From the NCBI RefSeq assembly GCF_001601825.1, contig NZ_LUJK01000028.1, forward strand, positions 1-42,293: a DNA stretch of 42,293 bases. Direction: 5' to 3'. This document shows, in pieces, positions 4,682 through 35,486 of this stretch. The notes under the pieces are model-generated. The model saw nothing but the letters and a program-made list of their open reading frames with translations. It ran no database searches and was not told the origin of the DNA. Source of the DNA: Limnobacter sp. CACIAM 66H1 (GTDB taxonomy: Bacteria > Pseudomonadota > Gammaproteobacteria > Burkholderiales > Burkholderiaceae_B). The translations under genes were made by a program, and so were the position numbers. Numbering within the stretch: position 1 is the stretch's first letter; each line of letters starts with the position of its first letter.

Positions 4682-5674
4682 TTATTGGTTTGATTTTACG
4701 GGAACTGTAGTGCGCCCAAGGTAATCAATCTCGCTTAATTTACAAAAGCTTTCAAGGTGCGCCGGGTTGTCTATCCCATACACCCCCAAATCAGCGCCTG
4801 GCGTGAACAAGGCATGGGTACGCTCGTTGGACCGTTGTTGCAACCAACCAAAAGCTGTGTGGCGCTTGGCCTCCATGTCGGGGTGCCAATGCTGCCCCTC
4901 AACCACTTTGCCCACCTCTTTGTACAAGTGATACAGCGGAATCAAATTGTGCCGAGGGTGAAACACCTGATAGCCCTTGGCATGCGCGCGCAAGGAAAGG
5001 CTTTGCTCTTCTCCCCGAAAATACAGATAGGGGTCGTACGGCACCTGCTGGGTAAAATCGCCGGAGGTGAATAAAAAACACGCCCCCACATGAAAACCCG
5101 GCAAGTGGGTCGTGTCAGGCTGCTCAGCCCGCTTTCGCACCACCCGGAACTGCAACACAGCGCGCTCGGCGGTCAACAGACTGCCAGGGTCGCGTTCAAT
5201 GAAAAATATCTCGTCAGATTTTGCAGGCTCATCCGCCACCGCCCTGCCTTGCGCATCAAATCGGAAACCTGGCGGGTAGGTGCTAACCAACGGCTTGGGG
5301 TGAATGGCTTGAAGCCGCAGCAGTTGTTGAATCAACAACTCATCCCAACCTTGATCAAACAAAGTGTGAGAATCAATTTGCAGCAAATAATCCTGGTCGT
5401 TATACAGCGAAAACGCGATGGCACGCGCCCAACTAACCCCGCGGGAATCCACGGGTGACAAGCCCACATAATTGATATTTTTGCGCACAGGAAACTGCGT
5501 CAACCACTCAGGGTTTAAGTGCTCGGATTGGTCGACCAAACCGACATGAATTCGCTGCGGATGGGCCGCCTTGGCAAACAATTGATGAATGGTCAAATAA
5601 AGGTGCGGTTCGCAATACGCAGCCACACTGACGAAAATCGTGGGCAGTTTGGGCACTCTATCCGCCTGCATCAT
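4682..5674 (-). CDS. GlcNAc-type glycosyltransferase (GT60-like, PF11397 family)
   Basis: A probable cytoplasmic GT-A fold glycosyltransferase of 330 residues. It opens with the IFVSVAAYCEP strand typical of the Glycosyltransferase (GlcNAc) family and carries the family core SRGVSWARAIA, then LLQIDSHTLF (the DxH metal/nucleotide site), STYPPGF and a late FRGEEQSLSLRAH segment. Its ATG overlaps the folP stop by four bases (ATGA), so translation is probably coupled to folP. Known members in eukaryotes add GlcNAc to hydroxyproline; bacterial members are mostly uncharacterised, so donor and acceptor are open. It sits between folP and glmM, which usually adjoin, and its neighbour makes the UDP-GlcNAc precursor. 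Confidence 0.8.
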   Translation of the reverse strand: MMQADRVPKLPTIFVSVAAYCEPHLYLTIHQLFAKAAHPQRIHVGLVDQSEHLNPEWLTQFPVRKNINYVGLSPVDSRGVSWARAIAFSLYNDQDYLLQIDSHTLFDQGWDELLIQQLLRLQAIHPKPLVSTYPPGFRFDAQGRAVADEPAKSDEIFFIERDPGSLLTAERAVLQFRVVRKRAEQPDTTHLPGFHVGACFLFTSGDFTQQVPYDPYLYFRGEEQSLSLRAHAKGYQVFHPRHNLIPLYHLYKEVGKVVEGQHWHPDMEAKRHTAFGWLQQRSNERTHALFTPGADLGVYGIDNPAHLESFCKLSEIDYLGRTTVPVKSNQ

Positions 5675-6507
5675 TGACTCAAAGCGAAGGCCACTTTCAA
5701 GGCCTCCACAGTTTCACGCACATCGTGCACGCGCAGCACGGCTGCCCCGTGTTGCGCCGCGTAGGTTGCCGCAGCCACCGAGCCGGCCGTGCGCAAAGCC
5801 GGATCGGTTTGTCCAGTCAGCTCCGCAATCATTCGCTTGCGCGACACACCGACCAACACCCCAGCCCCCAAAGTAGAAAACAAGGGCGTTGCCCTCAGCA
5901 AATCAATATTGTGCTGCAGTGTTTTGCCAAAACCAAAGCCAGGGTCCACCAGAATCCGGTTTGCCTGCACACCCAACTGCCCAAGCGCCAGCATGCGTTG
6001 GTTCAGAAATGCCTCAACATCGTTGACCACATGGTTGTACTGGGGCGAATTTTGCATGGTGCGCGGCTCACCTTGCATGTGCATCACTACCGCACCTGCA
6101 TTCGATTGTGCAAGCACAGCTTCAGCGCCTGCATCCCTAAAACCATTCACGTCATTAAGAATGTCCACACCCAAATGCACCGCACACGCCATCACGTCGG
6201 TTTTCATGGTGTCGATCGACAAAGGCACATTCCAGTTCATCAACTCTTTCAGAACGTCTGCGACGCGTGCCCATTCCTCATCAGCATCAACACCCTGAGC
6301 ACCTGGCCGGGTAGACTCCCCACCAATGTCCAGAATGTGTGCCCCCTGCTCCACCAGCTTGCGGGCATGCTCAATGGCAAGCCGGGTTGAGTTGTGCTTG
6401 CCTCCGTCCGAAAATGAATCAGGCGTGACATTCACGATACCCATAATCAAAGGCTTGCCGTGCGTGTAGGTAAGCTCGAAACGACCTGCTTTCCAAGTGC
6501 GAACCAT
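5671..6507 (-). CDS. folP: Dihydropteroate synthase
   Basis: Condenses p-aminobenzoate with dihydropterin pyrophosphate in folate synthesis; it is the sulfonamide target. The 278-residue protein carries both family signatures: GIVNVTPDSFSDGG (about residues 23-36) and GGESTRPGA (about 62-70). It also has the pterin-pocket DVNGFRD, DPGFGFGK and VGVSRKR segments. The ATG at 6507 follows an AAGG ribosome site. A possible minus-strand -10 (TAAAAT, 6541-6536) lies 29 bases upstream with no convincing -35. The gene is separated from ftsH by the repeat-filled region, so it may be transcribed on its own. Confidence 0.97.
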   Translation of the reverse strand: MVRTWKAGRFELTYTHGKPLIMGIVNVTPDSFSDGGKHNSTRLAIEHARKLVEQGAHILDIGGESTRPGAQGVDADEEWARVADVLKELMNWNVPLSIDTMKTDVMACAVHLGVDILNDVNGFRDAGAEAVLAQSNAGAVVMHMQGEPRTMQNSPQYNHVVNDVEAFLNQRMLALGQLGVQANRILVDPGFGFGKTLQHNIDLLRATPLFSTLGAGVLVGVSRKRMIAELTGQTDPALRTAGSVAAATYAAQHGAAVLRVHDVRETVEALKVAFALSQ

Positions 6508-6630
6508 GTGCTGCCTTGTGAGTTGCTGTGCTGGTATTTTACGGCATAGCAGCAGCTTAGTTCGCCTGCTGTGCTCACAGCTTATCCGTTAGCCTAGCCC
6601 GCTCAGGTGCGCACCCGTTTGTCCAAGCTT
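6508..6630. other. Non-coding stretch between folP and the structured element
   Basis: No gene is seen. It holds a palindrome, GCTGTG-CT-CACAGC, near 6569-6582, and a direct repeat: the motif GCTCAGGTGC at 6601 recurs at 6631, where the shared structured element begins. Any folP promoter must lie here or in the element. Between the element and ftsH (7020-7185) there is a degenerate tandem repeat and the ftsH terminator, but no gene. Confidence 0.6.
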
Positions 6631-7019
6631 GCTCAGGTGCATACCCTCTCTCGCCAGAAAACCTGAATACCCCCTTGTTATTGATTAACCGCCCCAAGCG
6701 CACCCGCTAAACAGCGGGCGGGCTGCGCTTTCGGCTTTGCCGAACGGACGGTTAATTCAACACCAAGGGCAGGTTTTCTTGATCGGCGCTGCGAGGATAT
6801 CGCCCCTGAGCGCACTGGCAACGGAGTTAGCGTACTGGCTTACTGGCCCTACTAGCGCGGGCGCTGTGCCGCCTTGCCGGCTTTGCAAGGCTTCCCGGCG
6901 GCTTCGTAGCGCGGGGCGGTTCCGCTAGGAACCGATGCGAAGACGCTTAAGCGTTTCGCATGCCCCAAGCCAGAAGCATCAAGCCGGATCAGAAGCATTG
7001 CTTAGGCAAGGTGGCACAG
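6631..7019 (+). repeat. Copy A of a dispersed structured element (candidate ncRNA)
   Basis: About 390 bases, homologous to 34607-34980 in inverted orientation. Nested pairings are visible. P1 pairs 6656-6665 with 6770-6779 (10 bp). P2 pairs 6684-6691 with 6749-6756, enclosing hairpins CCCGC/GCGGG and TTCGGC/GCCGAA. P3 pairs 6864-6878 with 7005-7019 (15 bp, one G-U). Inside P3, GGGGC (6913-6917) pairs with GCCCC (6962-6966) and encloses two hairpins: GGTTCC/GGAACC (6918-6933) and a long one with a single bulged base (6935-6961). Stem positions in P2 and in 6918-6933 covary with copy B. The strand is chosen because imperfect pairs are G-U only in this orientation. No convincing protein is encoded. 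It could be an RNA gene or a MITE/REP-like DNA element. Confidence 0.75.
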
Positions 7020-7109
7020 TACCCAAGTCTCGACCACACCAACGCCGCGCCACAATCAAAAGACTTGCTTAAGGCTTGGTGACGTAGCACCCAAGCCTCG
7101 CCATAACCC
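6998..7109 (+). repeat. Degenerate tandem repeat, unit about 45 bases, period 67
   Basis: The segment from 6998 (TTGCTTAGGCAAGGTG, then ACCCAAGTCTCG) recurs from 7065 (TTGCTTAAGGCTTGGTG, then ACCCAAGCCTCG). The first copy contains the 3' arm of stem P3. The second forms its own small hairpin, GGCTTGG with CCAAGCC (7073-7097). The duplication is absent from the second copy of the element. Confidence 0.6.
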
Positions 7110-7124
7110 AACTCCGAAGCAAGC

Positions 7125-7160
7125 AACAAAAAAGCCGTTGGTCGCGAAACCAACGGCTTT
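7125..7160 (-). terminator. Rho-independent terminator of ftsH
   Basis: A 12-bp perfect stem (7131-7142 with 7149-7160) and a 6-base loop, followed on the minus strand by a run of six T. It starts 25 bases after the ftsH stop and would separate ftsH from folP. Confidence 0.92.
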
Positions 7161-7185
7161 CAGGTTATAACAAATCCAGCAGGGT

Positions 7186-9108
7186 TTACTCTGCTTTCAC
7201 ACTCATCGCAGCAGGTGCAGGCTGAGGCGAAGGAGCAACCTTCTCGCCACCGCCACCACTGGAACTAGGGCTGCCACCCGTGGGAGGTGTGCTACCACCC
7301 GTTGAAGGTGGGCGTGGATCTTTTCCTTCCATGATGTCGTTGATTTGGTCCGCATCAATGGTTTCCCATTCCAGCAAGGCCTTGGCCATGGTGTGAACCT
7401 TGTCACGGTTCTGATCCAGAATATCCCAAGCCACCTTGTACTGCGAATCGATGATCTTGCGGATTTCCGCATCCACCATCTGCATGGTCTGCTCGCTCAT
7501 GTGCGTGGTCTTGGTCACTGAGCGGCCGAGGAACACCTCGCCTTCGTTCTCGGCATACACCATGGGGCCAAGAGCCTCGGTCATGCCGTAACGGGTCACC
7601 ATGTCACGGGCAATGGCTGTTGCACGTTCAAAGTCATTCGATGCACCAGTGGTCATCTGGTTCATGAAAATTTCTTCAGCAATGCGGCCACCAAACAGCA
7701 CGGCAATGGTACACAACATGCGTTCCTTGTCCATGCTGTAACGGTCACCTTCCGGCAACTGCATGGTCACGCCCAAAGCACGACCACGAGGAATAATCGT
7801 CACCTTGTGCACCGGGTCGGTTTTGGTCATCAATTTGGCGACCACAGCGTGGCCCGATTCGTGGTAAGCCGTGTTGCGGCGTTCCTCTTCGGGCATCACC
7901 ATGCTACGGCGCTCAGCACCCATGATGATCTTGTCTTTGGCTTTTTCAAAGTCGTTCATTTCAACCACACGGCCATTTCGACGTGCGGCAAACAAAGCAG
8001 CTTCGTTCACCAGGTTGGCCAAATCTGCGCCCGAGAAACCGGGGCAACCACGGGCCAGTACAGATGCGTCCACGTCTGGCGACATAGGGATTTTGCGCAT
8101 GTGCACTTTCAGAATCTGTTCACGGCCACGAATGTCAGGCAGGCTGACCACCACCTGTCGGTCGAAACGACCAGGACGCAACAAGGCCGGATCGAGTACA
8201 TCGGGACGGTTAGTCGCCGCAATCACAATGATGGCCTGGTCTGTCGAAAAACCATCCATTTCCACCAGCATCTGGTTCAGGGTTTGCTCGCGCTCGTCAT
8301 TTCCGCCGCCCAAACCAGCGCCACGCTGACGACCCACCGCATCAATTTCGTCGATAAAAATAATGCAAGGCGCCTGCTTCTTGGCCTGTTCAAACATGTC
8401 ACGAACACGCGCTGCACCCACACCGACAAACATTTCGACGAAGTCGGAGCCAGAGATTGCAAAGAACGGAACCTTGGCTTCGCCAGCAATGGCTTTGGCC
8501 AGCAGGGTTTTACCAGTGCCTGGCGACCCTACCATCAATACACCACGGGGAATACGGCCACCCAGCTTTTGGAACTTGGAAGGATCTTTCAGGAAATCAA
8601 CCATTTCCTGTACGTCTTCCTTGGCCTCGTCACAGCCAGCCACGTCCGCAAAGGTCACTGGGTTTGTGTTCTCATCCAGCAACTTGGCACGGCTTTTACC
8701 GAAACTGAACGCACCACCTTTGCCTCCACCCTGCATTTGACGCATGAAGAAAATCCACACGCCGATCAGGAGAATCATGGGGAACCAGCTCACGAACAGG
8801 CTCATCAGCAAGGATGGCTCTTCTTCAGGCTTGGCACGTACTTGCACGCCGTATTTCAGCAGATCACCCACCATCCAGATATCGCCAGGCGAATACACCA
8901 CCCGCTCACGGTCATCAGTGGTGAGAGCGCGCACAGTGCGGCCCTCGACGATCACGCTCTTGATGCGTCCATTCTGCGCATCCTGCATGAACTCGGAATA
9001 GGTCATTTCGTTGGAGCGCGTTTGCTGCCCTTCAAACTGTTTGAACACAGTAAAGAGCACCAGCGCCACAACCAACCAGACTGCTGCTTTGGAAAACGAA
9101 TTATTCAA
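7186..9108 (-). CDS. ftsH: ATP-dependent zinc metalloprotease FtsH
   Basis: Membrane-anchored AAA+ protease that degrades unneeded or damaged proteins, such as sigma-32 and LpxC in E. coli. Two N-terminal membrane segments (about residues 8-25 and 103-125) flank a periplasmic loop. The AAA domain has Walker A GSPGTGKT (near 195), Walker B IIFIDEID, and the second region of homology around [16 protein letters not shown]. The protease domain has the zinc motif HESGH near 418. The C-terminus ends in a Gly/Pro/Ser-rich tail. The start is probably TTG at 9108, giving MNNSFSK, with AGGAG eight bases upstream; the in-frame GTG at 9114 leaves only two bases of spacing. A heat-shock-like promoter lies just upstream. 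Confidence 0.97.
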
Positions 9109-9146
9109 TGCCACTTCTCCTCGAGGACTCTGCCACCACCCTAGGG

Positions 9147-33185: not shown

Positions 33186-34532
33186 ATGGCGTTCATCTTT
33201 TTTCGATTGATACTGTTGGCCATGGTGCTGGGTGCAGCCGCCATCGTGGGCCAAATGGTTGCTGGCCACCAAGGCGCAGTGGCGGGGTCTATTCTGGCCT
33301 CGCTGGTGGTGTATGCACTGCATGTGCGCTCGGGGCTGCGGATCATTGCGTGGCTGGATGATTTCAAGGTCGAGAATGTGCCTGATGTCTCAGGCTGGTG
33401 GGATGACCTGGCCGCAAAACTGTTTCGCTATTTGCGTTTACACCAGCGCCAACAACAAGCGCTGACCAATGCCCTGGTTTCATTTCGCACCGCTGCGCAA
33501 GCCCTGCCCGACGGCGTTGTCACGCTTGATTCGGAAGGCCACATTTCCTGGTGCAACGACACAGCCCAGGACCACCTGGGCTTGAAACTGGGCAGTGACA
33601 TCGGGCAACCATTGATTAACCTGGTTCGCAATCCGAACTTCTCCAAGTACATTCGCAGCCGCTCTTGGGAACAGCCCTTGATCATGACTGCGCCACGCAG
33701 CCGCAGCAAGGTTTTGTCGGTGCAATTGGTCAGCTATGGTGACCAGCAAATGCTGGTGCTTTCCCGAGATGTCACGCAGGTGGAAAAGCTTGAACGCATG
33801 CGCCGCGACTTCATTGCCAATGTGTCGCATGAACTGAAAACCCCGCTGACGGTGTTAAGCGGTTTTCTGGAAACCTTCCGCGACCTTCCGTTGAGCAAGG
33901 AACAGCAAACCGAGTACCTGAATTTGATGTACACCCAGGCCAACCGCATGCAAAACCTGGTAGAAGACTTGCTGGCCTTGTCAGCGCTGGAGTCTTCGCC
34001 CAATGCAGGCGAAGGTGGCGAGCCAGTTGACTTGAGCGGAATTGCTCAAAAAACAGGCGATGAAGCACAGCAGCTCTCAGCAGGCAAACACCATATTTCT
34101 GTAGATGTGGAAAAAGGTCTCATTGGTTTTGGCAACTCGGCCGAAATTTTCAGTGCTTTCTCGAACATTGTGACCAATGCAGTGCGCTACACGCCCGAGA
34201 AAGGAAATATAACGATCACGCTGCGACGCGCAGAAAACGAAATTGGCAAAGCCTGTGCTGCTTTTATGGTACGCGACACCGGTATTGGCATTTCAGCAGA
34301 GCATATTCCGCGATTGACCGAGCGGTTTTACCGTGTAGACCGCAGCCGTTCCCGTGAAAGCGGTGGTACGGGATTGGGCCTTGCCATTGTGAAACATGTG
34401 GTGCAACGCCACGATGGTGAACTGGACATTCAAAGCAGGCCGAATGCAGGCAGTACCTTCACCATTCTGATGCCGCTGGCGAAGGCTGGCGCGGCTTCCA
34501 AGCCTGCGCTTGCTGAAGCGACGGTTATTTGA
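33186..34532 (+). CDS. phoR: Phosphate regulon sensor kinase PhoR
   Basis: Inner-membrane histidine kinase of 448 residues that phosphorylates PhoB under low phosphate. Two adjacent N-terminal membrane helices (about 5-24 and 28-47) with almost no periplasmic loop are typical of PhoR. A linker and PAS domain (about 92-200) follow. The dimerisation domain has phospho-acceptor His215 in NVSHELKTPL. The ATPase domain has the N box (FSNIVTNAVRYTP), G1 (VRDTGIGIS) and G2 (GGTGLGLAIV) boxes. It signals together with the Pst transporter and PhoU, which are not in this window. Confidence 0.96.
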   Translation: MAFIFFRLILLAMVLGAAAIVGQMVAGHQGAVAGSILASLVVYALHVRSGLRIIAWLDDFKVENVPDVSGWWDDLAAKLFRYLRLHQRQQQALTNALVSFRTAAQALPDGVVTLDSEGHISWCNDTAQDHLGLKLGSDIGQPLINLVRNPNFSKYIRSRSWEQPLIMTAPRSRSKVLSVQLVSYGDQQMLVLSRDVTQVEKLERMRRDFIANVSHELKTPLTVLSGFLETFRDLPLSKEQQTEYLNLMYTQANRMQNLVEDLLALSALESSPNAGEGGEPVDLSGIAQKTGDEAQQLSAGKHHISVDVEKGLIGFGNSAEIFSAFSNIVTNAVRYTPEKGNITITLRRAENEIGKACAAFMVRDTGIGISAEHIPRLTERFYRVDRSRSRESGGTGLGLAIVKHVVQRHDGELDIQSRPNAGSTFTILMPLAKAGAASKPALAEATVI

Positions 34533-34606
34533 CTACCGAGATGCGCGACTGAACCTTGGGTGAGCTGCGTTCGATTTTAATTTCGGCGTGGTGCTCGACT
34601 TGGATG

Positions 34607-34980
34607 CTGTGCCACCTTGCCTAAGCAATGCTTCTTGATCCGGCTTAATGCTTCTGGCTTGGGGCATGCGAAACGCATAGGCGTATTCGCATCGACTCCT
34701 TGCGGAGTCGCCCCGCGCTTCGAAGCCGCCGGGAAGCATCGCAAAGTCGGCAAGGCGGCACAGCACCCAAATCTCGCCATCGCTCATCGCTCAGCGAACT
34801 CAGGTCGCAATGCCCTCGCTGCGCCGATCAAGAAAACCTGCCCGTTTGAATTCACCCGCCACGTTCGGCCAACAGCCGACACCGAGACTCGGCCCGCTTT
34901 TTTGCCGAGCGAGGTGAGTCAGGGTGAATCTCAAAAAGGGAAATACAGGTTTTCTGGCGCGAGAGGGTATTCACCTGAGC
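34607..34980 (-). repeat. Copy B of the dispersed structured element (candidate ncRNA)
   Basis: The inverted homologue of 6631-7019. By hand alignment the P3 half differs from copy A at about 13 positions plus one indel over some 157 bases, and the P1 arms are identical. P2 arms are at 34850-34857 and 34922-34929, and P3 arms at 34607-34621 and 34749-34763. P3 extends here to about 25 bp, with its irregular pairs all G-U when read on the minus strand. The small hairpin reads GACTCC/GGAGTC (34694-34709) where copy A has GGTTCC/GGAACC, so two pairs changed on both sides. It begins 26 bases after the HIT gene stop and fills the gap to phoR. The rest of 34533-35006 holds no gene; small open frames there are not conserved in frame with copy A. 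Confidence 0.75.
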
Positions 34981-35006
34981 GAGCGAAGCAAAGGAAAAGC
35001 AGCAAC

Positions 35007-35486
35007 TTAGCCCGGAAAAGCGGCCAGCAATTCAGCCCGCAAGTCCAGCATCCATTTTGGTTTCGAATCGAGCACCCACTGCTGGCGGGGCGACAAGGAA
35101 ACACCGGGTTTGGCAGTAGCCCACACGGGTGCCGGAAAATGTTTGTCGTCAGTAAAACGGGGAATGACGTGCCAGTGCAAATGTGGCACCACATTGCCAA
35201 GCGTTGCAATATTTGCCTTGTCGGCTTTGAAAACACGAAGTACGAACTGCTCGAGCAACACTACAGCGTCCATGCATAGCATGCGGTCTTCTCGGCTTAA
35301 ATCAGAAAACTCACGCACATGGTCATTCCACACCAGACGAAGAAAGCCGGGGTAGTCCGCATCGACAGCCTCGATAACACGGAATTTGCTGCAATTGAAA
35401 ACCCAATCACCACCCGGTGTGGCACACAGGGGGCAATTGGGATTCGGCGACACTTGATCAGACAAGGATGCGCTCGATACCGCCAT
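35007..35486 (-). CDS. HIT-family nucleotide hydrolase/transferase
   Basis: A 159-residue histidine-triad protein. The catalytic motif [10 protein letters not shown] (His102, 104, 106) is complete, and CPLC (about residues 18-21) may bind zinc. The [14 protein letters not shown] segment is typical of proteobacterial HIT proteins, which cleave phosphoramidates or dinucleotides. The ATG at 35486 lies 29 bases inside the 3' end of the oxidoreductase gene; a GTG at 35453 just after that stop is an alternative. The overlap implies co-transcription with the upstream oxidoreductase. The physiological substrate is unknown. Confidence 0.9.

Follow-up and report, generated by a model that had tools for sequence, protein, structure and literature searches.

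The window analysed here, the whole of a 42,293-nucleotide stretch of DNA from Limnobacter sp. CACIAM 66H1 (contig NZ_LUJK01000028.1), holds two similar elements in inverse orientation, copy A at 6631-7019 on the plus strand and copy B at 34607-34980 on the minus strand, and a check of the letters confirmed that both are real and lie where a previous, sequence-only reading had placed them. Copy A is flanked on the left by a folP-like gene (minus strand, 5671-6507) and on the right by an ftsH-like one (minus strand, 7186-9114); the neighbours of copy B are a histidine-kinase-like gene (plus strand, 33186-34532) and a HIT-like one (minus strand, 35007-35486); all four names are our own reading of open reading frames, which were called mechanically at a minimum of 100-120 codons. 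Elsewhere in the window, three clustered tRNA genes (His, Arg, Pro) occupy 1081-1411 on the minus strand. The base changes described between the copies were likewise borne out: stem P1 (AGAAAACCTG with CAGGTTTTCT) is identical in both, P2 reads ATTAACCG/CGGTTAAT in copy A versus ATTCACCC/GGGTGAAT in copy B and a further hairpin has the changed form GACTCC/GGAGTC in copy B. What did not hold is the notion of one element of 375-390 bases, for although A and B are indeed similar, each is made up of two modules, here called P and Q, which also occur apart.

In copy A, module P runs from CGCCAGAAAACCTG to CAGGTTTTCTTGA (6652-6782; pattern match, L001 1553-1683) and is assigned to the minus strand: it is written here on the plus strand, but members of the P family are more stable when folded as the reverse complement. 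Read on the plus strand, the 5' arm of P1 (6656-6665) faces its 3' arm at 6770-6779, a stem which covaries between copies, and within it the 5' arm of P2 (6684-6691) faces its partner at 6749-6756. The left outer arm of P consists of two tandem half-arms, GCTCAGGTGCGCACCC and GCTCAGGTGCATACCC (6606-6651, plus), and at the same folP-ftsH site in genome G015 we count by eye about 11 tandem 25-nt versions of this arm. Upstream of P at L144, L025, L030 and L292, one arm of its outer stem is likewise seen by eye to be repeated in tandem, and outside G015 the units are longer, with spacers that vary. Module Q of copy A (6852-7028, plus) is matched by covariance model R1 at 171.4 bits; its core (6913-6966, plus), recognised by pattern, fold and covariation, is a junction closed by GGGGC/GCCCC and bearing two hairpins. 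Further on, 7062-7102 (plus) resembles the preceding arm closely enough, by eye, to pass for a second tandem copy of the Q 3' outer arm, as it does at the same site in G005 and G006, and a terminator-like hairpin with a T-run, apparently that of the ftsH-like gene (7127-7161, minus; by eye, same hairpin in relatives), adjoins the element. In copy B, module Q lies at 34598-34775 (minus; R1, 160.3 bits) and module P at 34818-34964, where model R2 matches the minus strand (140.6 bits) and where, going by the preference of the family, the plus strand should fold better.

Both elements fold far more stably than chance would have it: the predicted RNA folds of 6630-7030 and 34600-34985 reach z = -9.49 and z = -9.36, each against 100 dinucleotide shuffles of which none was equally stable. 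When the genome of CACIAM 66H1 itself was searched with 6600-7030 of the window, 33 matches came up at E<=0.01, most of them covering the query in part. The modules P (121-140 nt) and Q (model matches of about 174-188 nt) are separable; in the first 134 loci collected, 34 of 52 pattern-found P, a set that includes a few spurious matches, are followed on their right, at no more than 300 nt, by a same-strand Q; no opposite-strand Q lies within 1 kb of any of the 52.

The models that followed the modules through the genus were built from 21 sequences (R1, for Q) and 23 sequences (R2, for P); alignment A4 holds 21 of 24 Q (L046, L131 and L132 were left out) and has 34 columns that are invariant across them. 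Instead of the two copies claimed at first there are tens per genome, and the numbers that follow are lower bounds because at most 150 candidates were scored in each genome. R1 gives at least 172 matches to Q (E<=1e-4) in 12 of the 16 genus genomes, with at least 16 in G000, 13 in G001, 3 in G003, 19 in G004, 13 in G005, 11 in G006, 14 in G009, 6 in G010, 10 in G011, 27 in G012, 10 in G014 and 30 in G015. R2, which picks up P together with a diverged partner found in inverted orientation (P', see below), yields at least 542 matches in 13 of the 16, again as minimum counts: 38 in G000, 51 in G001, 17 (weak) in G002, 4 in G003, 59 in G004, 33 in G005, 46 in G006, 20 in G009, 21 in G010, 42 in G011, 91 in G012, 31 in G014 and 89 in G015. 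Neither model matches G007 (85% complete), G008 (65% complete) or G013. G002 lacks any match to the Q model, and those of its P-like matches that were listed score 35-61 bits; possibly these represent a lineage of their own within the P family.

Beyond the genus the trail ends. Of 250 genomes sampled from the same family, 16 are Limnobacter, and in the other 234 neither R1 nor R2 has a match at the stricter filters used there. A 29-base Q pattern matched 75 stretches in a collection of named genomes, every one of them bearing the title of a Limnobacter or of a Burkholderiales/Gammaproteobacteria bin; viral contigs gave no match to it. Origin from a phage or plasmid was set aside after blastn of 6600-7030 gave no match in 50,697 phage and 72,556 plasmid records, although the phage, plasmid and viral queries were confined to this part of the window or the Q pattern, with P' and the third module described below outside them. 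Nor is a known RNA family at hand: Rfam 15 at gathering thresholds returns just the three tRNAs of the window, and seven repeat loci compared at E<=1 give a single hit, to sR32 (E=0.3, 19.2 bits, threshold 40), in keeping with the original statement that the copies could not be placed in a familiar family. In such literature on Limnobacter repeats, noncoding RNA and related repeats as our search brought up, we found no description of P or Q.

The stems of both modules are conserved through compensatory changes. Among 83 distinct Q, 95.8% of stem cells are paired, compared with 86.6% in shuffles and 30-41% with the partner slid, and 344 cells are changed on both sides versus 104 in shuffles, none of 500 shuffles reaching this or the pairing value; for P and P' together (105 distinct) the paired fraction is 97.1%, compared with 86.0% in shuffles and 35-58% slid, and 215 cells rather than 42 are changed on both sides, figures to be read with the qualification that both alignments were fitted to the structure, so that the pairing values favour it, and that the shuffles ignore the relatedness of copies. 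RNAalifold run on MAFFT alignments finds both-sided changes at 23 of 42 pairs in 15 Q and at 7 of 39 in 11 P. The closing stem P1 comes in four matched versions (GAAAACCTG, GAAAGCCTG, GAAAATCTG and GAAAGTCTG, each with its complement) and at its two pattern-free positions complementarity holds in 59 of the 60 oriented copies, the remaining one having G.U. A pattern for the main hairpin of Q, in which a single base of varying identity stays unpaired, is matched by 92 of 95 Q; the pattern itself demands a base at that place. The search of related genomes with a covariance model, recommended by the sequence-only reading, did bring to light further copies with covarying stems.

Mismatches in the stems were counted only if flanked by Watson-Crick pairs, with scoring equal for both strands. 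When each orthologous site is represented once (n=36), Q stems have G.T 61 times versus A.C 14 times and G.A 25 times versus C.T twice; the Q of the own genome (n=15) behave alike (G.T 21 versus A.C 4, G.A 10 versus C.T 1). This asymmetry is absent in the P outer arms (n=23; G.T 10 versus A.C 13, G.A 6 versus C.T 5). Folding energies give a strand to both modules. For Q, the strand on which it was originally read is the more stable one in 90 of 105 cases, or 35 of 42 with one copy per site; for P, 46 of 53 cases (8 of 9 sequence clusters) favour the reverse strand, and so do 54 of 62 main P and 35 of 42 inverted partners P' from a larger set, with the strand of the model as reference. In random windows from these loci the strands differ little, by 1.6 kcal/mol on average, and the written one comes out ahead in 132 of 300 (p=0.01). 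The two modules of one pair, then, prefer opposite strands. DNA energy parameters reproduce the preference obtained with RNA parameters, so the energies do not separate RNA from single-stranded DNA and a decision between the two on this basis was dropped. A bias towards single-stranded DNA of the lagging strand was also considered, and the Q strands in G015 do not favour it (judged by eye, with the origin assumed at coordinate 1).

These findings bear on what P-Q may be. If it were one large structured non-coding RNA gene - as the sequence-only reading had it in the first of its two suggestions - a single transcript would span both modules and act in trans or as a riboregulator. The very stable fold over the whole stretch would suit such a gene, as would the strong covariation and the 34 invariant columns, but with P and Q folding better on opposite strands no single transcript folds both at best; the modules are moreover found apart and in tens of copies per genome, and the linker between them is by eye not conserved across species at the folP-ftsH site. 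To our minds, a gene of this kind is therefore unlikely. Even less probable, we think, is a palindrome of double-stranded DNA, be it a cruciform or a site for protein binding, in which template switching keeps the arms matched in the absence of single-strand selection. It would account for long outer stems that differ from site to site, for single arms that are tandemly duplicated and for P outer arms devoid of mismatch asymmetry, yet it is at odds with the asymmetric mismatches in Q, with the opposite strand preferences of P/P' and Q and with the unpaired base in the main Q hairpin, which arm correction is expected to have erased (no independent test, as the pattern requires that base). We infer that selection acts on the single strand in its folded form; a point against this is that template switching could in part maintain the perfect outer stems. 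Of the second suggestion made initially, a mobile palindromic element with a selected fold, the evidence supports the multiple copies, the palindromy and the selected fold, the latter in view of compensatory changes and strand-specific Q mismatches, but not the mobility, which the three sites compared below, old by their looks, do not bear out.

How the modules are combined is best seen in G015, a genome in a single contig. To the right of its 49 strong P (at least 84 bits, a limit chosen after the list had been inspected) lies an inverted P' in 26 cases and a Q in 21, including Q at L261 and L210 and weak inverted P' at L310 (40.7 bits) and L307 (26.7 bits); of the two remaining strong P, one is followed by a second P and one (L309) has no partner. 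Nothing lies to the left of a strong P within 400 nt in this genome. Pairing made use of lists with 25 of the 30 Q in G015 and 12 of the 13 in G005. When 40 P regions were fetched from three genomes - the best-scoring listed P with no listed Q and thus not a random sample - 35 had an inverted, diverged P' 71-248 nt to the right, 13 of these partners scoring below 40 bits; among the other five, L261 has a Q, L264 an inverted P' 1231 nt off, and L276, L290 and L292 none. In a first pass, the 25 strong P of G005 divide into 6 with P', 3 with Q, 1 with a second P and 15 with no partner in the genome search, and many of these P resemble a third type, which in the own genome is partnered by a hairpin with stem GAAAACTTG/CAAGTTTTC. 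This third right-hand module takes the position of P' at L025, L027, L029 and L030 (G000) and at L291 (G014) and is weakly detected by R2 (27-31 bits) as an inverted match; L026 has a P with no visible partner. The left-reading strand is the one on which P folds, the right-reading strand that of Q and of inverted P', so that pairs have a single, divergent orientation of their folds in common. Taken together, what we are looking at is very probably a genus-specific repeat of paired large branched hairpins, with P on the left and either Q or an inverted, diverged P' on the right.

The pairs prefer the 3' ends of genes, convergent gaps above all. Among the 79 of 95 Q with a called gene on each side (orthologous copies kept in), 37 lie between convergent genes, 31 have genes that run against Q, 9 genes that run with it and 2 are in divergent gaps, and the gene on the 3' side of Q points at it in 68 of the 79. 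For P-P' pairs, 35 of the 40 fetched regions entered the count, with 19 convergent, 14 co-directional and 2 divergent gaps, so that pairs and Q together are found in divergent gaps 4 times in 114. The background, 177 gaps of at least 40 nt and free of motifs from 75 named loci, comprises 34 convergent, 107 co-directional and 36 divergent ones, and against it the convergent excess has Fisher p = 5.5e-5 (P-P') and p = 9.5e-6 (Q), both uncorrected for relatedness.

Site by site, species differ in the modules they hold. At the folP-ftsH site, 11 of the 14 genomes shown have the element, which was not seen in G002, G003 and G013; the interior of P is of one type in G000, G001, G005, G006 and G011 and of another in G004, G010, G012, G014 and G015, and in G009 P is mostly lost. 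A second site, with 14 loci, has P and Q in G001, G004, G006, G010 and G014, Q and no intact P in G000, G005, G009 and G015, and no element in the stretch shown for G002, G003, G011 and G013 (the G012 stretch is too short to reach it). At a third site there is, depending on the species, a P-like module alone, one with Q, a fused one or no element. Different module types thus occupy one chromosomal site in different species, and it follows from the three comparisons that modules differ in place and that parts are lost by deletion. The three sites thus look old. A shared two-way terminator ending a P-Q RNA was discarded as a general rule, given that by eye the hairpin present at ftsH has no counterpart between gene and Q at the second site.

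Three pairs in G015 stand out by spacings of 1170, 1231 and 1512 nt, as against 103-248 nt in the others, and each of these long gaps contains two small genes that run in the direction from P to its partner. They encode an NlpC/P60 protein (Pfam E=4e-16) next to an open reading frame with no convincing match (L264, 2650-3880), a C92 papain-like protein (E=1e-7) next to an unmatched frame (L299, 1190-2690), and a frame that looks interrupted, the piece of it that was searched belonging to no family, next to a DUF3828 protein (E=7e-13; L049, reverse complement of 1656-2850); all NCBIfam matches of these genes stay under their cut-offs. Pairs free of genes are found at the orthologous sites in G000, G001 and G014 (first site), in G012 and G004 (second) and in G001 and G004 (third); at the second of the three, G010 and G011 have P with no Q, and species also differ in the right-hand module of the first.

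Could P and its partner be the two ends of a conventional non-autonomous transposon (MITE), left behind by a transposase of the DDE or another type? Unlike inverted ends around a variable middle, the two small genes between them at three G015 sites and the exchange of modules may be taken to say so. On the other hand, P with its partner is already present at orthologous sites in gene-free form, from which it seems more likely that the genes entered pre-existing pairs; in addition, neither a target duplication nor a cognate transposase was identified, and 6600-7030 has no match in the phage and plasmid records, so that we hold this origin to be quite unlikely. The gene pairs may by analogy be effector and immunity genes. 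From here one might go further and propose a new, two-ended class of mosaic repeat defined by structure, in which unlike branched hairpins on opposite strands are exchanged in place and offer a platform where small gene pairs, a cell-wall hydrolase-like gene with a small partner gene, would be inserted between the hairpins by a putative enzyme. We regard this as doubtful. If the gene-carrying cases were to generalise, hairpin pairs would also be docking sites for small gene pairs.

Several known repeat systems invite comparison. BOX elements of Streptococcus pneumoniae are modular mosaics that fold stably and in which parts are amplified in tandem; by this description they differ from the Limnobacter repeats in their unrelated host and in having no known inverse pair of branched hairpins. 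In integrons, attC sites matter as folded single strands and gene cassettes lie beside structured sites; compared on that description, Limnobacter differs in that just three pairs carry genes, each time between two modules. ERIC/IRU sequences are palindromic, intergenic and about 130 nt long and form a single hairpin, which, along with their other hosts, sets them apart from the repeats described here. According to the excerpted text of one survey, Yersinia ERIC act as RNA hairpins, and 40 bacterial genomes hold many families of structured repeats, with Bordetella and Neisseria named as its beta-proteobacteria (PMC2267715).

Closest in kind are REP sequences. They are described as palindromic units of 20-50 nt with a GTAG tag, arranged as inverse pairs with a variable linker and recognised by a transposase on one single strand (PMC8266576), as two super-families with GTAG or CGTC tags, the CGTC type having no dedicated transposase (PMC3733652), and as frequent between convergent genes (PMC1525189). 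The Limnobacter repeats share with REP, BIME and REPIN of E. coli, Pseudomonas and others that they are palindromic, intergenic and present in many copies, with tandem copies and inverse pairs; their layout is that of a BIME (REP plus inverted REP) with much larger units, and like REP the pairs are found at gene 3' ends and often between convergent genes. They depart from the 20-50 nt units in the size and branching of P and Q, and from GTAG-type REP with its RAYT (TnpA-REP, Y1) in that 15 of the 16 Limnobacter genomes have no Y1 transposase. A GTAG or CGTC tag was not seen when the consensus of alignments A4 and A6 was inspected by eye. Membership in REP/BIME was accordingly rejected, three of five tested features (unit size, tag, transposase) being different, and RAYT-driven REP was ruled out with PF01797, the signature of Y1 transposases and the only enzyme family sought, present in 1 of the 16 genus genomes (G012) and absent from the own one.

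Palindromic repeats in bacteria are mostly short, and what they do is a matter of dispute, since it is hard to tell structure, strand and mobility apart. With large modules, hundreds of covarying copies, fixed left-right pairing, opposite strand preference, shared sites and visible exchange, such questions become testable in one small genus. The reading we prefer, with moderate confidence, is that of a BIME-like mosaic repeat of paired hairpins whose single-stranded fold is selected and which probably acts at RNA 3' ends. The last part is more tentative when taken by itself. A read-through transcript from either direction would meet one module in its stable orientation before the neighbouring gene, and this hairpin might set or protect the 3' end of the RNA or help Rho to stop the transcript, so that a pair may work as a two-way 3'-end structure or as a brake between converging transcripts. 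Ordinary terminators differ, however, in that here the stable module is the one distal to the gene whose read-through would end, which counts against a role at 3' ends. Weighing against the preferred reading, too, are the P outer arms with their symmetric mismatches, the P for which no partner was seen in G005 and in three of the fetched regions, the low scores of 13 of the 35 partners, the presence of a Y1 transposase in just 1 of 16 genomes and the agreement of RNA and DNA energies on the strand. No promoter or target-site duplication was identified for the modules. As to how the family spread and exchanged its modules, folded single-stranded DNA handled by a putative enzyme is proposed tentatively on account of the likeness to BIMEs, and we would give this route about as much credit as the role at RNA 3' ends.

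Genome G012 encodes two Y1 (IS200-like) transposases, L058 and L059, and also has the most P/P' matches, at least 91.
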